DNA of 32,007 bases, taken from assembly GCA_903916555.1 (NCBI GenBank), contig CAIWXG010000206.1, positions 1 through 32,007 on the forward strand. The letters are read 5' to 3'. Every line of letters starts with the position of its first letter. Position 1 is the first letter of the stretch. Source of the stretch: an uncultured Bacteroidota bacterium (GTDB lineage Bacteria; Bacteroidota; Bacteroidia; Chitinophagales; Chitinophagaceae). The translations under genes were made by a program, and so were the position numbers. Below, in pieces: positions 14,176-31,914 of this stretch. Below the pieces are notes generated by a model, which saw only the letters and a program-made list of their open reading frames with translations, had not been told where the DNA came from and did not search any database.

Positions 14176-16014
14176 TTACTCTACAGTAACTGATTTTGCC
14201 AGATTTCTTGGTTGGTCTACATTGCATCCACGCATAATGGCAATATGGTATGCAAGTAATTGTAATGGTACAATAGTTATAAGTGGCGATAGTATTTCTT
14301 CTGTTTCAGGTACTTCAATAATATGGTCTGCTAAGGCTCTTATTTGTGTATCGCCTTTAAGCACAACTGCTATAATTTTTCCTTTACGGGCTTTTACTTC
14401 TTGCACATTAGATAATATTTTTTCGTATGCACTTTTGTTGGTAGCTAAGAAAACCACGGGCATATTTTCATCTATCAATGCAATAGGACCGTGTTTCATT
14501 TCTGCTGCCGGGTATCCTTCTGCATGTATATACGATATTTCTTTTAGCTTAAGCGCTCCTTCTAATGCTACCGGGAAATTATAGCCCCTACCTAAGTATA
14601 AGAAGTTGGTTGCATCTTTATAGATAGTAGCTATTTCTTTAATAGTATCGTTTAATAATAATGTTTCTTCAATTTTCTTAGGTATCTGTTCTAATTCATA
14701 TAGTATTTCACGCAATTTTGGGGTAGAAATGGTACCCTTACTATGTGCTAACTGCAAAGCAATAAGTGTAAGAAGCGTAATTTGCGTAGAAAAAGCTTTT
14801 GTTGATGCTACTCCAATTTCAGGCCCTGCGTGTGTATAGCTGCCACTGTGCGATGCTCTTGGTATAGAAGCACCAATTACATTACAAATACCATATATAA
14901 ATGCTTGTCTGCTTTTTGCAATTTCAATAGCTGCTAACGTATCTGCAGTTTCACCCGATTGTGAAATGGCTATAACCACATCCATTTCATGTAAAATAGG
15001 GTTACGGTAACGGAATTCCGATGCATATTCTACTTCTACCGGTACGCGTGCCAAATCTTCTATTAAGTATTCGCCTATTAAGCCGGAGTGCCACGATGTG
15101 CCGCAAGCAGTAATAATAAAACGCTGTGCTTTGTCTATTCTATTTAGGTAATCAGTTATACCGCTTAATTTTATCCAGCCCTGTTGTGCACTCATTCTGC
15201 CACGCAATGCATCTTCAATTGCTTTAGGTTGTTCGTATATTTCTTTAAGCATGAAATGATCGAAACCGCCTTTTTCAATTTTTTCAAGAGAAAATTCCAG
15301 TTTCTTAATCTCATGGCTTTTTTCAATGTTGCCTAACGTTCTGATAGCATAATTACCATCATTATTTATTACAGCATATTCTTGGTCGTCTAAATAAACT
15401 ACATTTTTAGTATATTCAATAATCGGTGATGCATCTGATGCAATAAAAAACTCGTTATCACCAATACCTATTACCAAAGGGCTACCCTTGCGGGCAGCAA
15501 TTAACTGATTAGGATTATTTTTATTTAATATAACGATTGCATAAGCCCCTACAACCTCATTTAAGGCTATACGCACTGCATTATCTAAACTCGTATTTTC
15601 TGCTTTTTGTACTTCTTCAATAAGGTTTACCAATACTTCGGTATCAGTATCGGAATGAAAAACATAGCCACGTGTCTCTAATTCAGCTTTTATAGATGCG
15701 TAGTTTTCTATAATACCATTATGAATAATTGCTAAATTACCAGATTGAGAAATATGCGGATGTGCATTTCTGTCGTTAGGTTCACCATGTGTTGCCCACC
15801 TTGTATGTCCAATACCAATACAAGAATGTATATTGTTTTTGTCAACAATTTTCTCAAGGTCCATTACTTTGCCTGCCTTCTTAAAAAGGGTCATTCCACC
15901 ATTAAGTAGAGCAATTCCGGCACTGTCGTAGCCTCTGTATTCAAGTCTTTTCAATCCCTTTATTAAGATGTCATAAGCTTGTTTTTTGCCAATATAACCT
16001 ACTATACCACACAT
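14176..16014 (-). CDS. glmS: Glutamine--fructose-6-phosphate aminotransferase (isomerizing)
   Basis: The 612-residue enzyme makes glucosamine-6-phosphate from fructose-6-phosphate and glutamine, the first step towards UDP-GlcNAc. The N-terminal glutaminase domain (1-about 225) begins MCGIVGY, so Cys2 becomes the nucleophile after Met removal. It also has LEYRGYDSAG, HTRWATHGEP and the HNGIIENY motif. Two SIS sugar-isomerase domains follow, with CGTSWHSG, SQSGETADT and STKAFSTQ in the first half and the invariant C-terminal DQPRNLAKSVTVE. Length matches E. coli GlmS (609). It is the last gene of a minus-strand operon, 18 bp after the DUF4270 gene. No glmS ribozyme is expected in this phylum, and no room exists for one upstream. 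Confidence 0.97.
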   Translation of the reverse strand: MCGIVGYIGKKQAYDILIKGLKRLEYRGYDSAGIALLNGGMTLFKKAGKVMDLEKIVDKNNIHSCIGIGHTRWATHGEPNDRNAHPHISQSGNLAIIHNGIIENYASIKAELETRGYVFHSDTDTEVLVNLIEEVQKAENTSLDNAVRIALNEVVGAYAIVILNKNNPNQLIAARKGSPLVIGIGDNEFFIASDASPIIEYTKNVVYLDDQEYAVINNDGNYAIRTLGNIEKSHEIKKLEFSLEKIEKGGFDHFMLKEIYEQPKAIEDALRGRMSAQQGWIKLSGITDYLNRIDKAQRFIITACGTSWHSGLIGEYLIEDLARVPVEVEYASEFRYRNPILHEMDVVIAISQSGETADTLAAIEIAKSRQAFIYGICNVIGASIPRASHSGSYTHAGPEIGVASTKAFSTQITLLTLIALQLAHSKGTISTPKLREILYELEQIPKKIEETLLLNDTIKEIATIYKDATNFLYLGRGYNFPVALEGALKLKEISYIHAEGYPAAEMKHGPIALIDENMPVVFLATNKSAYEKILSNVQEVKARKGKIIAVVLKGDTQIRALADHIIEVPETEEILSPLITIVPLQLLAYHIAIMRGCNVDQPRNLAKSVTVE

Positions 16015-25278: not shown

Positions 25279-25286
25279 TATATTTG
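25279..25286 (+). promoter_or_regulatory. Candidate promoter of the T9SS cargo gene
   Basis: TATATTTG matches TAnnTTTG exactly. A TTTA (three of four matches to TTTG) lies at 25255-25258 with a 20-bp spacer. Transcription would start near 25293, giving a leader of about 12 bases before the ATG at 25305. Confidence 0.5.
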
Positions 25287-25304
25287 AGTTCAAAAATATA
25301 TTTT

Positions 25305-27005
25305 ATGCATAAGAAATTATTTGTCCTCCTATTTTTAAGTTTTGCAGTTACTTTAAGCTCTTTTGCACAAACAGGTTGGCAATGGGGTGTTGGAAGCACC
25401 CACCCTAATACACCTTATTATGGTTTTGATGAACAAGCTGCAGTATTAGACCGTACTGGAAATATATTTGTGGCAGGTTATGGGTGGGGAGATTCTTCAA
25501 TTTTCGGGACATTGGCATTATATAATAATATGGGTTACGAGCCATTAGTAATTGTAAAAATAGACTCTTCAGGTCTTTATCAATGGGTTACTGCTGTAAG
25601 ACATTCTAATTGTAATACCGGTGGTATGATAACTGATAGAGTAGGCAATTTATACGTATTAGTCAGTTCAGACAGTAGCGTGGCAACCATAGATACTTTT
25701 AATCTTTTAAATCCTTTAGCACCTTCGCAACCGGCAGTTTTTTTAATGAAACTGTCCCCGGCAGGTCATGCTTTATGGGTAAGAACTATAGGCGAGGTTT
25801 ATTTTAATACGTCTAATTGCGTTGCAATAGATGGTGCTGATAATGTATATGTAACTTCTGATTATCCTGTTGGCAGCCTCACTTTAGGGAGTGTGGTATT
25901 GTCAAACTGGGGTATAGGTGATAATGTTTTTGTAGCAAAATATGATACAGCGGGTAATGTAATTTGGGCTAAAGGTTTTGGCGGTAGTTCTATAGAGTTT
26001 AGTGCTGCTATTACTGCTTCAGCCAAAGGCGATGTTTATTTCACGGGGGCTTCTTATTCCGACTCAATGAGTATAGGCTCTACTAAATTATATGACACCA
26101 TGAATGGTGGACACCCAATAACATTTTTAGCAAAATTAGATAGTAGCGGAAATCCTTTGTGGGCAATTTCTAATAAAAACAGATTAAACATCTACAATAT
26201 GAAAACAGACCTAAACAGTAATATTTATATTGCCGGAAGTTGCGATACAAATGTTATTTATGGTACTGATACACTACCTTATGTTGGAAATGGTGATGCT
26301 TTTATTGCAAAATTTAATCCGGATGGCGTTTTTAAATGGGCAAAATCAGTAGGTGATTCGGGTGCGGATGCTGTTTACGGTATGGATATTGATGCTTGCG
26401 GAAAAATATGGTTATGCGGCCAATTTGGTCATAACACAACAGAATATATTATGAATTTTGGTGGGCATGTTCTAACTGCACCCATAATTGAGGAACCTAC
26501 CTTTATTGTAAATTATGATACCAGCGGCAATTATGATACCAGTTTTTATATACCGGGCGGCGGTGATGATTTTAATAATATTTTAGTAGATAATAAAAGT
26601 AGTTTTTATGTTGCCGGCGACTATTCTACAGTTAGTGTAGGTTTGAAATTTGGACCCGATACATTAATACAAAATGTTGGGAGCGAAGCCTTATTTGCTG
26701 CTAAATATAAATATGGTAGTGTTATATGTACTCGTACAGAGGTAGAGGTATTTGCAAATACAAACGAAGATATTCTACTTTTCCCTAATCCTACAAATAG
26801 TTATTTTACCATTAAAGATAATTACTTAATGACCGGTAATAATAAAATAGAACTTTACGATATTACCGGCAAATTAGTTGGTAATTACGTATATAACATT
26901 AACGTTGAATTTAATATTAAAAACCTTTCATTCGGTTTATATATTTGTAAAATTACTGCTGACGACGGCAACAGCTTCATCAAAAAGCTTTTAATAGGCA
27001 AGTAA
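25305..27005 (+). CDS. Secreted repeat protein with T9SS type A C-terminal sorting domain
   Basis: I start at the ATG of 25305 (566 residues), because it opens a clean signal peptide, MHKKLFVLLFLSFAVTLSSF, cut after FAQ. The frame can be extended seven codons only to a TTG. The body holds at least five beta-propeller-like (SBBP-type) repeats with the pattern 'F-[VIL]-x-K-[YFL]-D-x-x-G-x-x-x-W': VIVKIDSSGLYQW, FLMKLSPAGHALW, FVAKYDTAGNVIW, FLAKLDSSGNPLW and FIAKFNPDGVFKW. The last 75 residues are a T9SS sorting domain: LFPNPTNSYFTI, KIELYDITGKLVG, LSFGLYICKIT and a basic end IKKLLIGK. It is therefore exported by Sec, passed through the type IX system and probably attached to the cell surface. 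The ligand is unknown. It is monocistronic. Confidence 0.9.
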   Translation: MHKKLFVLLFLSFAVTLSSFAQTGWQWGVGSTHPNTPYYGFDEQAAVLDRTGNIFVAGYGWGDSSIFGTLALYNNMGYEPLVIVKIDSSGLYQWVTAVRHSNCNTGGMITDRVGNLYVLVSSDSSVATIDTFNLLNPLAPSQPAVFLMKLSPAGHALWVRTIGEVYFNTSNCVAIDGADNVYVTSDYPVGSLTLGSVVLSNWGIGDNVFVAKYDTAGNVIWAKGFGGSSIEFSAAITASAKGDVYFTGASYSDSMSIGSTKLYDTMNGGHPITFLAKLDSSGNPLWAISNKNRLNIYNMKTDLNSNIYIAGSCDTNVIYGTDTLPYVGNGDAFIAKFNPDGVFKWAKSVGDSGADAVYGMDIDACGKIWLCGQFGHNTTEYIMNFGGHVLTAPIIEEPTFIVNYDTSGNYDTSFYIPGGGDDFNNILVDNKSSFYVAGDYSTVSVGLKFGPDTLIQNVGSEALFAAKYKYGSVICTRTEVEVFANTNEDILLFPNPTNSYFTIKDNYLMTGNNKIELYDITGKLVGNYVYNINVEFNIKNLSFGLYICKITADDGNSFIKKLLIGK

Positions 27006-27325: not shown

Positions 27326-28882
27326 TTATCCTGTAGCTTTTAGCATAGTTTTTTTCTTGGTTTGTGCGCCAAAGCCTTGTCGCTGCATATTACCCCATAC
27401 GTGCTTGCGATTAAATATAAAGTTCACATATCCTTTAATAGAAAAGAAAAGAATCAATGGGTGATAAACAAATGGTTCTAAAAATGCCATTAAGCATAAA
27501 CCCATTACCTCTCCCCATGTTTTGTAATATCTAAACGTTACTTGGTCCCATAACAAAGCTAATGTAGTAATCATTACAGAATAAGTATATACAAATATTA
27601 TCAATATAATGGCGTAAGGCCAGTTAATTTGTCCTGTTAATATTAAATATATGTAAAAAAGAATACCTGTAAATTCAATAATAGGTGCCAATAGCTCATA
27701 TAAAAAGTTATAAGCAAAAACCACAGTTCCTAATCTTCCATATTTAGGATTAAAAATTATTTTGTGGTGTATGCTCATTATCTGTGCAAGCCCTCTCGCC
27801 CATCTCGACCTCTGCCTACCGAATACTTTTAATGTAGTAGGGCCTTCCGTCCAGCAAAGAGTCATTGGTACATATCTTATGGAGTATTTCTTTTTGTTGT
27901 CTTTCATAAAGGCACACATTCTGGTTATCAAATCCATGTCTTCACCAAAAGATTTGGGGTCGTAACCACCTGCCATTACTGCAATTTCTTTATCAAACAT
28001 CCCTAATCCACCGGATACATTTGGTACTGAATTGATTAAATCCCAGCCCATTTTACCTAATACGAATGCCCGTATATATTCCATTTCCTGAAAACGTGGT
28101 AAGAAACGTGCAGGCGGACGAACACGTATTAACAGCCCTCCGTCAACCTCGCAAGAGTTAACCATTCTTAATGTAGCACCGGAAGCAATAACACGTGTAT
28201 GGTCTTCTTGAATATGCACAAAACCACATTCAGGACAAGGTTCACCTATTTCCTTTATTTTAGTGGTTTCCTGGTCCATAAATGGCTTTATGAGTTTTAT
28301 CAGAGTGTCTTTATCCAAGATACAATCTACATCGGTACATAAGAAATAATTGTAAGAAGATACATTTATACCCGCATTCGATGCATCCGCTTTACTTTTA
28401 CCGTTTACTTTATCTACCACCATTAATTTTTCAAATGCATGGTTAGTAGATCTAAAAATTCGTCTTATGGGTTGGGAATTTAATTTTTCGCGGTAGGCAT
28501 AATCAACCTGTATGAGTTGGTATTCTTCTATTAATTTCTCAAGTGTATCATCTGTACTTCCATCGTTAATAATAATAACCTCAAAACGAGGATAGTTTAA
28601 TGTAAGCAGCGAACGTACATTTTGAATTATGGTAACCCCTTCATTAAATGCAGGTGCAATTACAGAAATACCCAGTGCTAATGGTGATTCTACAATAATA
28701 TCATAGTTTACAGAAGCGTTCTTCTTCATGTAATTTCTGATAGATATAAGGGACATCATAGCCAGTAAAGCGTAGCAAAAGAGCAAGGTAGTACCATAAA
28801 CAAAGACTGCCGATTGGTAAAAAGTACCAATGGTGTTCCAGAATCCGTTTTCTTCACTAAAAAACTTAACAATACTGTGCAT
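27326..28882 (-). CDS. Processive family 2 glycosyltransferase, membrane-bound (copy A)
   Basis: The 518-residue protein has an N-terminal membrane segment (about 22-48), a cytoplasmic GT-A domain (about 70-370) and a C-terminal cluster of helices (about 385-490), as in PgaC/IcaA, hyaluronan and cellulose synthases. The processive-enzyme set is complete: Asp107 in INDGST, DVD at 184-186 for the metal/UDP-sugar, GED at 313-315 with the catalytic-base aspartate, and QRSRW at 357-361 (Q-x-x-R-W). A stretch near 205-228 contains CPECGFVH, a possible Cys-Cys-His metal site, which is missing from the paralogue next door. The polymer made is unknown. It is the last gene of a four-gene operon, 13 bp after copy B. 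PilZ, a c-di-GMP-binding domain, is not seen. Confidence 0.92.
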   Translation of the reverse strand: MHSIVKFFSEENGFWNTIGTFYQSAVFVYGTTLLFCYALLAMMSLISIRNYMKKNASVNYDIIVESPLALGISVIAPAFNEGVTIIQNVRSLLTLNYPRFEVIIINDGSTDDTLEKLIEEYQLIQVDYAYREKLNSQPIRRIFRSTNHAFEKLMVVDKVNGKSKADASNAGINVSSYNYFLCTDVDCILDKDTLIKLIKPFMDQETTKIKEIGEPCPECGFVHIQEDHTRVIASGATLRMVNSCEVDGGLLIRVRPPARFLPRFQEMEYIRAFVLGKMGWDLINSVPNVSGGLGMFDKEIAVMAGGYDPKSFGEDMDLITRMCAFMKDNKKKYSIRYVPMTLCWTEGPTTLKVFGRQRSRWARGLAQIMSIHHKIIFNPKYGRLGTVVFAYNFLYELLAPIIEFTGILFYIYLILTGQINWPYAIILIIFVYTYSVMITTLALLWDQVTFRYYKTWGEVMGLCLMAFLEPFVYHPLILFFSIKGYVNFIFNRKHVWGNMQRQGFGAQTKKKTMLKATG

Positions 28883-28895
28883 AATACAAATTAAT

Positions 28896-30353
28896 TTATG
28901 CGGTTGCCGGCTTTGTCTCCGATTTTTTAAAGCCTTTTCTTTGCATATTACCCCACGAGTGTTTTCTATTTGTAAGAAAAAATATATATCCTCTTAATGC
29001 AAATATAACAATTAATGGGTGATATAAAATCATTTCTATAAATACCATTGATGCGACTCTAACTACATCCATCCAATCTTTATAATATTTAGATGTTAAA
29101 TGGTCCCACAATACAGCTATTGTAGAAATCATTATTGAATAGGTATAAACAAATATTAAAAGTATAATAGCATAAGGCCAGTTAACCTGACCAAAAATAA
29201 TAAGTAGTATATAATATATTATTCCTAAAAATTCAATTACAGGAGCCATAAACTCAAAAATAAAATTATAGGGAAACATAACCATTCCTACAATACCATA
29301 TCTGGGGTTAAAGAACATTTTTCTGTGTGCCAATACCAGTTGTATTAAACCTCTACCCCATCTGGTTCTTTGCCGCATAAATATTTTTAGGGATGTTGGG
29401 CCTTCTGTCCAACATAAGGTAGCAGGAATATATCTTATGGCACTTGGTATTTTATTGTCGTAGCAATACCTATTCATGCGCATCATTAACTCCATATCTT
29501 CCCCAAATGAGGCGGCATCATAGCCGCCGGCTTTAATAACTATTTCTTTATCAAACATACCCAAACCACCCGATACGTTGGGTACGGCATTTATTAAACT
29601 CCAGCCCATTTTACCCAATACAAATGCCCTGATGTATTCCATTTCCTGAAAGCGAGCCAAAAAAGGTCTTGGTGCTCTTATTTTTGTAATTACACCCTTA
29701 TCAATATCGCACGAATTGGCTATTCTTAATGTAGCACCTGTGGCTATTACTCTTTTTTTATCTTCTTCAAGTACAGGTCTTATTAATTTAGATAATGTTT
29801 GTTCATGTAATATACAGTCAACATCGGTACATAAAAAGTAAGGAAATGAAGATGCATTTATTCCTGCATTCGTAGCGTCAGCTTTTGCTTTACCATTTTC
29901 TTTATCAACAATTACTAATTTTGCATAAGCATCATCTGTAGATTTATAGATACCTCTTACTTCTTTAGTTTGTATTTTAATATTATATGCAAAATCAACT
30001 TTTATCAATGAGAATTCTTCGCATACTTTACTTAGAGTATCATCTGTACTACCATCATTAATAATAATAACTTCATATTTGGGATAGTCGAATGTAAGTA
30101 ATGACCTTACATTATCAATAATAGTAAGCCCTTCATTAAATGCCGGTGCAATAACAGAAATACCCGGTGCTAATGGTGAACCTACCACAACTTTATAATC
30201 TGTATAACTTTCTTTTTTCTGATATACTTGTATATTTAAAAAAGACATTATAGCCAACATTGCATAAAGTAAAAGCAACATGATACCATACACGAAAACC
30301 GTGCCCTCAAAAAAGACAGTAAGATAATACCAGAAAGGATTAGCACCAAACAT
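28896..30353 (-). CDS. Processive family 2 glycosyltransferase, membrane-bound (copy B)
   Basis: This 485-residue paralogue is collinear with copy A: N-terminal helix (about 14-40), GT-A domain with Asp100 (INDGST), DVD at 177-179, GED at 284-286 and QRTRW at 328-332, then C-terminal membrane helices (about 355-460). All catalytic motifs are intact, so both copies should be active. The two share long blocks such as FQEMEYIRAFVLGKMGW and NVSGGLGMFDKE, indicating tandem duplication followed by divergence. Copy B lacks the cysteine-bearing insert of copy A. Only 2 bp separate it from the HEAT gene upstream, which argues for coupled translation. They might form a heterodimer or add alternating sugars. 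UDP-GlcNAc is a reasonable but unproven donor guess. Confidence 0.92.
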   Translation of the reverse strand: MFGANPFWYYLTVFFEGTVFVYGIMLLLLYAMLAIMSFLNIQVYQKKESYTDYKVVVGSPLAPGISVIAPAFNEGLTIIDNVRSLLTFDYPKYEVIIINDGSTDDTLSKVCEEFSLIKVDFAYNIKIQTKEVRGIYKSTDDAYAKLVIVDKENGKAKADATNAGINASSFPYFLCTDVDCILHEQTLSKLIRPVLEEDKKRVIATGATLRIANSCDIDKGVITKIRAPRPFLARFQEMEYIRAFVLGKMGWSLINAVPNVSGGLGMFDKEIVIKAGGYDAASFGEDMELMMRMNRYCYDNKIPSAIRYIPATLCWTEGPTSLKIFMRQRTRWGRGLIQLVLAHRKMFFNPRYGIVGMVMFPYNFIFEFMAPVIEFLGIIYYILLIIFGQVNWPYAIILLIFVYTYSIMISTIAVLWDHLTSKYYKDWMDVVRVASMVFIEMILYHPLIVIFALRGYIFFLTNRKHSWGNMQRKGFKKSETKPATA

Positions 30354-30355
30354 TA

Positions 30356-31504
30356 CTATTTAATTAAAGGATTGAGACAATGTTTTATTATTAATTTATT
30401 TTCGTCATACGATGTTTCTAATAATTCTTCTACTATTGCTTTCGATTCTTCTGTTCCATGGCTTATTATAGCTCTTGCAGCATTCATTCTTATATCAAAA
30501 TTAGCAGAATAAGATAATTCTTGTTTTAGAAATTCCAAATTTCTGCCGGAAGCAATCTGTCCGATAGCTTTTAAAATTTCTATTTGGCATATTAACGGCT
30601 GGTGTTCGTATATTTTAATTAATTTGGGCTCAGTAGCTTCTGCCGACAGTTTTCCTAAACATGCAATAGCATCTGCTCTAAAATAGTGGTCTTTATTATT
30701 TAATAATTCCATTACAGCGGGTATGGCACTTTGCTGGTCGTAATAGGCAATTAATTTCAGACAAAATGAAACAACACTTTTATTTGTAGAATAACTTACC
30801 CAACGCGAAAAGTTTGGAATTTGTATATCTTTAGTAGTAGTAATAATTTTAAACATATCTAACTGGTCCCAAGGCAAAAGGGGTTCTGTAGCAATATCAA
30901 AAAACTTAAACGGTTCGTTTTTACTAAGCTGAATATAAGCATTCCGTGCTGCTGCACGTAATGATGAATTACTACTATTTGTGAGGGGCAGAATGGTTAC
31001 GTCTGATATTTGAATATCCATTTGTGTCAATTCCATTACAGCTCTTATTTTCTTTTCCCACCTTAGAGTTTTCATTTTATCAAAAGAATCTTTGGTAAGA
31101 TTCATATCAATATATAACTTTCTAAGTAAATCCCCAACCTCACCTCTGAAATTTTTTCTATACGAAATAAGAATATCAATCATCGCTTGCCTTACCCATT
31201 GTTGCTTATATATTTTATCAGTAATAGCATTCTGATTAAATTCTATTTCATCAACAGGTTCAATTCCTAATTTTTCGTTTAGTAAAACTTCTTCGGTTAT
31301 CAGGTCTTCAATTTTGGGTGTAATACTGGCTAAGCGTTTGTCGTGTATATAAGCACGCCAACGCCTTATTAAGATAACCGTATAGGCAATAAGGGTGGCA
31401 AAAACAGCAATAAAAATGAAGGCAAGGGCAATCTTAATGAAAAGTGGTTGATAGCCAAATCGTTCGTACGCTTGTAATAATAGGTCATAGAATACCTTCC
31501 ACAT
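30356..31504 (-). CDS. Membrane-anchored HEAT-repeat protein
   Basis: The 382-residue protein has one N-terminal membrane helix (about 22-46), followed by RRWRAY, which suggests a cytoplasmic remainder. Residues about 95-380 are helical repeats of the HEAT type. The clearest lie in the second half: AIPAVMELLNNKDHYFRADA, IACLGKLSAEATEPKLIKIY, and the final block of DIRMNAARAIISHGTEESKA. HEAT solenoids are binding scaffolds with no catalysis. Position between a receiver-domain protein (23 bp upstream) and two glycan synthases (2 bp downstream) suggests that it links regulator and synthase at the membrane. That is inference; no partner can be read from the sequence. Confidence 0.85.
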   Translation of the reverse strand: MWKVFYDLLLQAYERFGYQPLFIKIALAFIFIAVFATLIAYTVILIRRWRAYIHDKRLASITPKIEDLITEEVLLNEKLGIEPVDEIEFNQNAITDKIYKQQWVRQAMIDILISYRKNFRGEVGDLLRKLYIDMNLTKDSFDKMKTLRWEKKIRAVMELTQMDIQISDVTILPLTNSSNSSLRAAARNAYIQLSKNEPFKFFDIATEPLLPWDQLDMFKIITTTKDIQIPNFSRWVSYSTNKSVVSFCLKLIAYYDQQSAIPAVMELLNNKDHYFRADAIACLGKLSAEATEPKLIKIYEHQPLICQIEILKAIGQIASGRNLEFLKQELSYSANFDIRMNAARAIISHGTEESKAIVEELLETSYDENKLIIKHCLNPLIK

Positions 31505-31527
31505 GTATTGTAGCTATTTTATTTTTT

Positions 31528-31914
31528 TTATAAGCTATGCTTTATGGTTTTGTTTGCCATTAATTTACGAATACGAATCAGTAATTCGCCTGCCATTATA
31601 GGTTTTTTAAGATAATCGTCAGCTCCAAGTCTAAAAGCCTCCGTTATTGTTTCTTCATTGCCTACCGATGATACAATAATAATACTTACATGTTTGCGTG
31701 CAGGGTCGTTTTTTAACTTACTTATTACCTCCAAACCATTTGCATACGGCATCATTAAGTCCGAAAGAACTAAGTCATAATCTGCATGTTCTAATTTTTC
31801 AAACGCTTCTTTTCCGTTTTTTGCTAAGATAACATTATAACCATCCTTACTTAAGATGTTTTTAATTGCTTTTAGCATTATTTCATCATCTTCTACTACT
31901 AATATGTTAGCCAT
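31528..31914 (-). CDS. Single-domain response regulator (CheY-like receiver)
   Basis: The 128 residues are one complete receiver domain with no output domain. The acidic pocket is Glu8-Asp9-Asp10 (VVEDDE), the phospho-acceptor Asp52 in LSDLMMP, a Ser near 82-83, and the conserved Lys104 in YLKKP. It must act by binding another protein. As the first visible gene of the operon with the HEAT protein and both GT2 enzymes, it probably switches their activity in response to a histidine kinase. No kinase is in the window; one could lie beyond the right edge, only 93 bp away. Ending after NKTIKHSL matches the normal length of stand-alone receivers, so it is not truncated. Confidence 0.95.
   Translation of the reverse strand: MANILVVEDDEIMLKAIKNILSKDGYNVILAKNGKEAFEKLEHADYDLVLSDLMMPYANGLEVISKLKNDPARKHVSIIIVSSVGNEETITEAFRLGADDYLKKPIMAGELLIRIRKLMANKTIKHSL

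Follow-up and report, generated by a model that had tools for sequence, protein, structure and literature searches.

Gene content of the locus

The window, that is, the whole stretch of DNA analysed here, is the complete contig C206 of 32,007 bp. Four ORFs are encoded tail-to-head on its minus strand, with intergenic gaps of 23, 2 and 13 bp. The first gene (31528-31914, minus strand) encodes a stand-alone receiver (single-domain response regulator) of 128 aa, which matched the Pfam domain Response_reg (PF00072; E = 2e-30) and whose phospho-acceptor, D52, is encoded at about nt 31759-31761. The second gene (30356-31504, minus strand) encodes a membrane-anchored HEAT-repeat protein of 382 aa with a Pfam match to HEAT_2 (PF13646; E = 4.5e-14). 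The last two genes, GTa (28896-30353, minus strand; 485 aa) and GTb (27326-28882, minus strand; 518 aa), encode paralogous PgaC-like GT2 synthases according to Pfam and NCBIfam, and both contain the Pfam Glycos_transf_2 domain; GTa is predicted to be processive. The first-pass annotation had joined these genes into one operon under a receiver-only regulator, and our analysis agreed with it on the ORFs, the coordinates and the three gaps. Neither a DNA-binding output domain nor a PilZ domain was found. As had also been noted, the window ends 93 bp above the receiver gene. This point is the end of the contig, and the upstream neighbour of the receiver is therefore unreadable in this genome.

Conservation of the arrangement in Bacteroidota

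We surveyed 395 Bacteroidota genomes, a MAG-rich sample in which contig breaks hide some neighbours; ORFs in the neighbourhood scans were called by longest ORF. Strong HEAT matches (threshold of about E < 1e-17) were found in 52 of the 395 genomes, 51 of them beyond the window's own, and amounted to 59 HEAT genes. A GT gene was located directly downstream, on the same strand, of 58 of the 59 HEAT genes, so that conservation of the gene order, a check named beforehand, was borne out. The spacing was within 1 kb in 53 cases and 1.1-1.7 kb in the other five, in which the HEAT ORF extends past its matched part. A further ten HEAT matches, too weak for the strong set, were likewise located directly upstream of a GT gene. 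When a HEAT match or a HEAT-sized ORF was accepted, 94 of 99 GT genes were preceded by one, a count that is partly size-based and in which a few regions overlap.

The exporter gene showed a similar distribution. YaiO was encoded within 12 kb of 49 of the 59 strong HEAT genes, and it followed the last GT gene in 29 of 30 loci, the exception being a near relative of the window species. Independent surveys of the 395 genomes detected the GT in 93 genomes, YaiO in 93 and both in 91 (Fisher value: 1e-84, uncorrected for relatedness), and all the 52 strong-HEAT genomes fell inside these 91. Upstream of the synthase, a stand-alone receiver was encoded within four genes of 62 of the 99 GT genes. In a set of 60 GT neighbourhoods, 41 had such a receiver within four genes upstream and 25 had a histidine kinase or hybrid within five. 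About one third of the neighbourhoods showed no stand-alone receiver in the four upstream genes, and some of these have one elsewhere in the locus. In 24 of 26 informative loci the receiver directly precedes the HEAT gene. The four-gene arrangement is far beyond chance and recurs phylum-wide.

The receiver and the HEAT protein

The window receiver has D52, S82 and K104. The acceptor Asp was kept in 84 of 89 distinct operon receivers; the remaining five are without it, which counts against control through phosphorylation. In 18 of 20 genomes tested, the operon receiver was the best match to the family profile. It scored 194 bits in the window genome versus 99 bits for the next receiver, and the margin of the top match was about 70-100 bits within the window's genus. 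There were two exceptions: the copy in the operon of G054 has diverged, and G178, with two operons, has a higher-scoring receiver at another position of the same contig. Judged by these profile scores, the operon receiver is a distinct subfamily and part of the system. That it might belong to an unrelated upstream system, a possibility named in advance by the first-pass annotation, is ruled out by the conservation of order and by the receiver subfamily. In two genomes of one genus, G362 and G183 (loci L168 and L170), the receiver beside the HEAT gene has lost the acidic pair, the acceptor Asp, the Ser/Thr and the conserved Lys, and a GGDEF-EAL gene stands where a kinase otherwise sits. This degeneration alongside GGDEF-EAL is suggestive and was seen in one lineage only.

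The HEAT protein has one N-terminal transmembrane helix at about residues 21-39 according to hydropathy. A long helix (residues 21-74) followed by a HEAT solenoid was predicted by AlphaFold2 (mean pLDDT 90.5), and the solenoid structurally matched alphaRep and the PP2A-A scaffold. A basic stretch, RRWRAYIHDKR, follows the transmembrane segment; by the positive-inside rule, the solenoid is thus predicted to be cytosolic. In one relative, the HEAT protein carries two LysM domains ahead of the transmembrane segment, which fits a periplasmic N-terminus. Conservation along the sequences of 116 HEAT proteins revealed no single sharp interaction patch.

A HEAT fold is a binding scaffold, and the protein might serve constitutively as an assembly scaffold, in the manner of a ligand-free PgaD or Alg44. 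The synthase and exporter would then be real, and the receiver would act elsewhere, for example on transcription partners, in motility or as a phosphate sink. The neighbourhoods without an adjacent receiver and the degenerate receivers are consistent with this explanation. However, a distinct receiver subfamily is kept beside the HEAT gene across classes, exactly two genes upstream of the GT in 52 of 99 GT neighbourhoods, and degenerate receivers remain beside it as well, which suggests a physical partner. We consider a purely constitutive scaffold rather unlikely and favour a receiver that acts through the HEAT protein.

The synthases GTa and GTb

The motifs D, DxD, ED and QxxRW are invariant in GTa, GTb and the whole GT family, in line with the earlier claim that both enzymes keep their catalytic residues. 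Among the E. coli synthases tested against the GT profile, PgaC scored best (89 bits), followed by YaiP (36 bits) and BcsA (25 bits). GTa and GTb scored 112-116 bits against the PgaC equivalog model (cut-off 422.3) and 31-35 bits against the CelA/BcsA equivalog model (cut-off 699). Membership in the PNAG (Pga) systems is ruled out by scores far under the curated PgaC cut-off, and membership in the cellulose (Bcs) systems by scores below the curated CelA/BcsA cut-off and by the absence of PilZ. A PDB sequence search with the GT gave short catalytic-domain matches only, and a fold search was more useful: the predicted model of GTb (mean pLDDT 77) best matched hyaluronan synthases, then chitin and cellulose synthases. 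From the motifs and fold matches, GTa and GTb are predicted to be inner-membrane GT2 synthases, and we infer that synthesis is processive.

Membrane GT2s that make single additions have the same Pfam domain and fold, and ceramide glucosyltransferase was among the PDB sequence matches. GTa and GTb could accordingly add single sugars to proteins or lipids, and the YaiO barrel would then serve a glycoconjugate of the envelope instead of a secreted polymer. Against this, QxxRW is retained, the top structural matches are processive synthases, and the synthases are partnered by a TPR/barrel exporter and a glycosidase-like protein, a combination also seen in cellulose and PNAG systems. Single transfer is thus improbable, and GTa and GTb are treated below as candidate polymerases.

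A tree and a comparison of lengths identified GTa and GTb as separate paralogues in the window's lineage, with GTb on a separate branch. A single GT is present in Sphingobacterium and in most other systems, and the congener G003 has retained GTb alone at the locus. The second GT is a lineage-specific duplicate. Of the earlier proposal of two active polymerases, the assignment to processive-type synthases held, whereas the need for two did not, since most systems have one GT. GTb contains a 22-residue insert (28202-28267, minus strand), absent from GTa and from single-GT systems, which carries a CPECG(F/Y)xH knuckle with residues C216, C219 and H223. All GTb proteins of the set contain CxxCG, and the knuckle is possibly a zinc site or a dimer contact. 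A GlmS-like gene with a GATase and two SIS domains (window 14176-16014) is located about 11 kb from the synthase genes; it is probably a housekeeping gene, though one that would feed UDP-GlcNAc.

Exporter, DUF4838 protein and histidine kinase

In the loci of most relatives, two further genes directly follow the receiver, HEAT and GT genes: the first encodes a TPR protein whose C-terminal part is a YaiO barrel, the second a DUF4838 protein. An outer-membrane barrel with a TPR scaffold is encoded with the synthase, within the operon in relatives and on another contig, C489, in the window genome. On C489, the YaiO and DUF4838 genes are adjacent; the DUF4838 ORF is complete, and 586 aa of YaiO are present, with truncation by the contig end alone. 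In G002, a near relative, the pair is encoded on a separate 37.8-kb contig with its own upstream region and other flanking genes. Given these locations in both genomes, the small lineage of the window species has split the operon. The first-pass annotation had reported neither an export porin nor a kinase. Both omissions trace to the split operon and the contig end: absence of a porin is ruled out by the barrel encoded on C489, and many relatives have a histidine kinase gene upstream of the receiver, in several of them a TPR histidine kinase just upstream. Within the window's genus, no kinase gene adjoining the receiver was found, which weighs against gating by phosphorylation. That the window copy is a decaying remnant, as the separation of the exporter pair from the synthase genes in this genome and in G002 might suggest, is very improbable, with four intact ORFs that have all their motifs, a DNA identity of 92.5% with G002 across 4.6 kb, lengths that match as well, and a YaiO-DUF4838 pair on C489 that is truncated by nothing but the contig end.

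The DUF4838 protein showed a weak GH67/GH84-type similarity in its N-domain and has a discoidin-like C-domain. On the strength of this weak N-domain similarity, the lipoprotein is probably a glycoside hydrolase. Directly downstream of GTb in the window, a convergent gene (25284-27005) encodes a type IX secretion-tailed beta-propeller-repeat protein and occupies the position where relatives carry YaiO. In other lineages, PF00884 (sulfatase/alkaline-phosphatase-type) proteins are encoded beside the GT or fused to it (L124:4644-8426, L103:3588-5969 and L062:10061-12127) and possibly decorate the polymer. A family of about 390 aa that has no Pfam match also recurs beside GT and YaiO genes (L062:12916-14076 and relatives). 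With locally built profiles, the PF00884 partner did not match BcsG, and this set of YaiO proteins did not match E. coli YaiO, though PF19413 has matches in E. coli.

c-di-GMP components

Control through c-di-GMP receptors is frequent, but not universal, among synthase-dependent systems, and it is the usual explanation of how these polysaccharides are regulated. The receptors reviewed for such synthases are the PilZ domains of BcsA and Alg44, PelD, and PgaCD. An early census, which had four sequenced Bacteroidetes genomes to draw on, noted that they have no diguanylate cyclases (PMC1183210). Few as these genomes were, the question of how synthases are switched in Bacteroidota has thereby lacked an answer.

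At the thresholds used, no GGDEF match was found in the window genome or in 47 of the 52 strong-HEAT genomes, and no PilZ match in any of the 30 genomes tested. The window system is thus without a recognisable c-di-GMP receptor domain, and the departure from the usual c-di-GMP control that had been proposed for it was upheld. In a few lineages, the HEAT protein and GT are retained next to a GGDEF protein and lack an adjoining receiver, an arrangement that counts against a switch operated by the receiver. In the f33 genomes (L160-L166), a CHASE3/GAF/PAS-GGDEF protein is encoded downstream of or near the GT, directly after it in several, which suggests that the same synthase is coupled to c-di-GMP in these genomes.

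A model of synthase control

No description of a receiver-HEAT-GT module was found in the papers searched. We think it fairly probable that these genes represent an undescribed synthase-dependent polysaccharide system in which a phospho-receiver and a HEAT protein take the role of c-di-GMP and its receptors. From the gene content, gene order, phylum-wide co-occurrence, motifs and predicted folds, we infer the following course of events. The four genes would constitute the inner-membrane and regulatory half of a polysaccharide secretion system. GTa and GTb would polymerise a sugar, putatively from a nucleotide donor, and pass the polymer through the inner membrane. The periplasmic TPR scaffold fused to the YaiO-type outer-membrane barrel would export it, and the DUF4838 lipoprotein, probably a glycoside hydrolase, would trim it. 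The histidine kinase, encoded adjacently in many relatives, may phosphorylate the receiver, which would then bind the membrane HEAT protein on its cytosolic side. The HEAT protein would hold the synthase and turn it on or off. Receiver and HEAT protein would together do the job that c-di-GMP performs elsewhere with PilZ, PgaD, Alg44 or PelD.

A wider reading, to which we give slightly less than even credence, is that polysaccharide synthases of a phylum-wide, undescribed class are switched allosterically by a phospho-receiver acting via a membrane HEAT adaptor, in place of c-di-GMP. Lineages with diguanylate cyclases would have been rewired to GGDEF or GGDEF-EAL proteins, leaving a pseudo-receiver or none. 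The module offers a concrete candidate for the switch in Bacteroidota. GT and exporter are encoded in roughly one quarter of the sampled genomes, and the carriers include cultured Sphingobacterium and Taibaiella.

Comparison with known systems

The system resembles PgaABCD of E. coli in having a PgaC-like GT2, for which PgaC was the best match among the E. coli synthases tested, a TPR protein with an outer-membrane barrel, a probable carbohydrate-processing enzyme and a small membrane partner of the synthase. It differs in that the GTs score below the PgaC cut-off, the barrel is from another family, a HEAT protein and a receiver are present, and c-di-GMP domains were not found. Neither PgaB nor PgaD was seen when the operon partners were assigned by means of Pfam and local profiles. 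Like Bcs, the system has a processive GT2 (predicted here), a TPR and barrel exporter and a periplasmic hydrolase (probable here), and the PF00884 partner of some relatives, even fused to the GT, recalls BcsG. In contrast to Bcs, it has no PilZ, its GT is only weakly similar to BcsA, and the profile of the PF00884 partner is without a match to BcsG.

EpsW of Myxococcus xanthus, a single-domain regulator, activates an enzyme of glycan initiation when phosphorylated, and does so post-translationally by direct contact (PMC12802240). As with EpsW and EpsZ, a receiver-only regulator is here encoded at a polysaccharide locus. However, the target of EpsW is a large monotopic phosphoglycosyl transferase of a Wzx/Wzy pathway and is contacted directly, whereas the partner here would be a GT2 synthase with a HEAT protein in between. 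If true, the present model would mean that the EpsW principle, which concerns Wzx/Wzy initiation, applies to processive synthases as well.

The E. coli yaiO-yaiX-yaiP-yaiS locus, for which our literature search found no functional study, is more distant in its synthase and regulation. YaiP scored 36 bits against the GT profile, the locus has no receiver or HEAT gene, and its YaiO, of 257 aa, is without the long TPR part. The two loci nevertheless share a barrel of the same family (PF19413) encoded beside a GT2.
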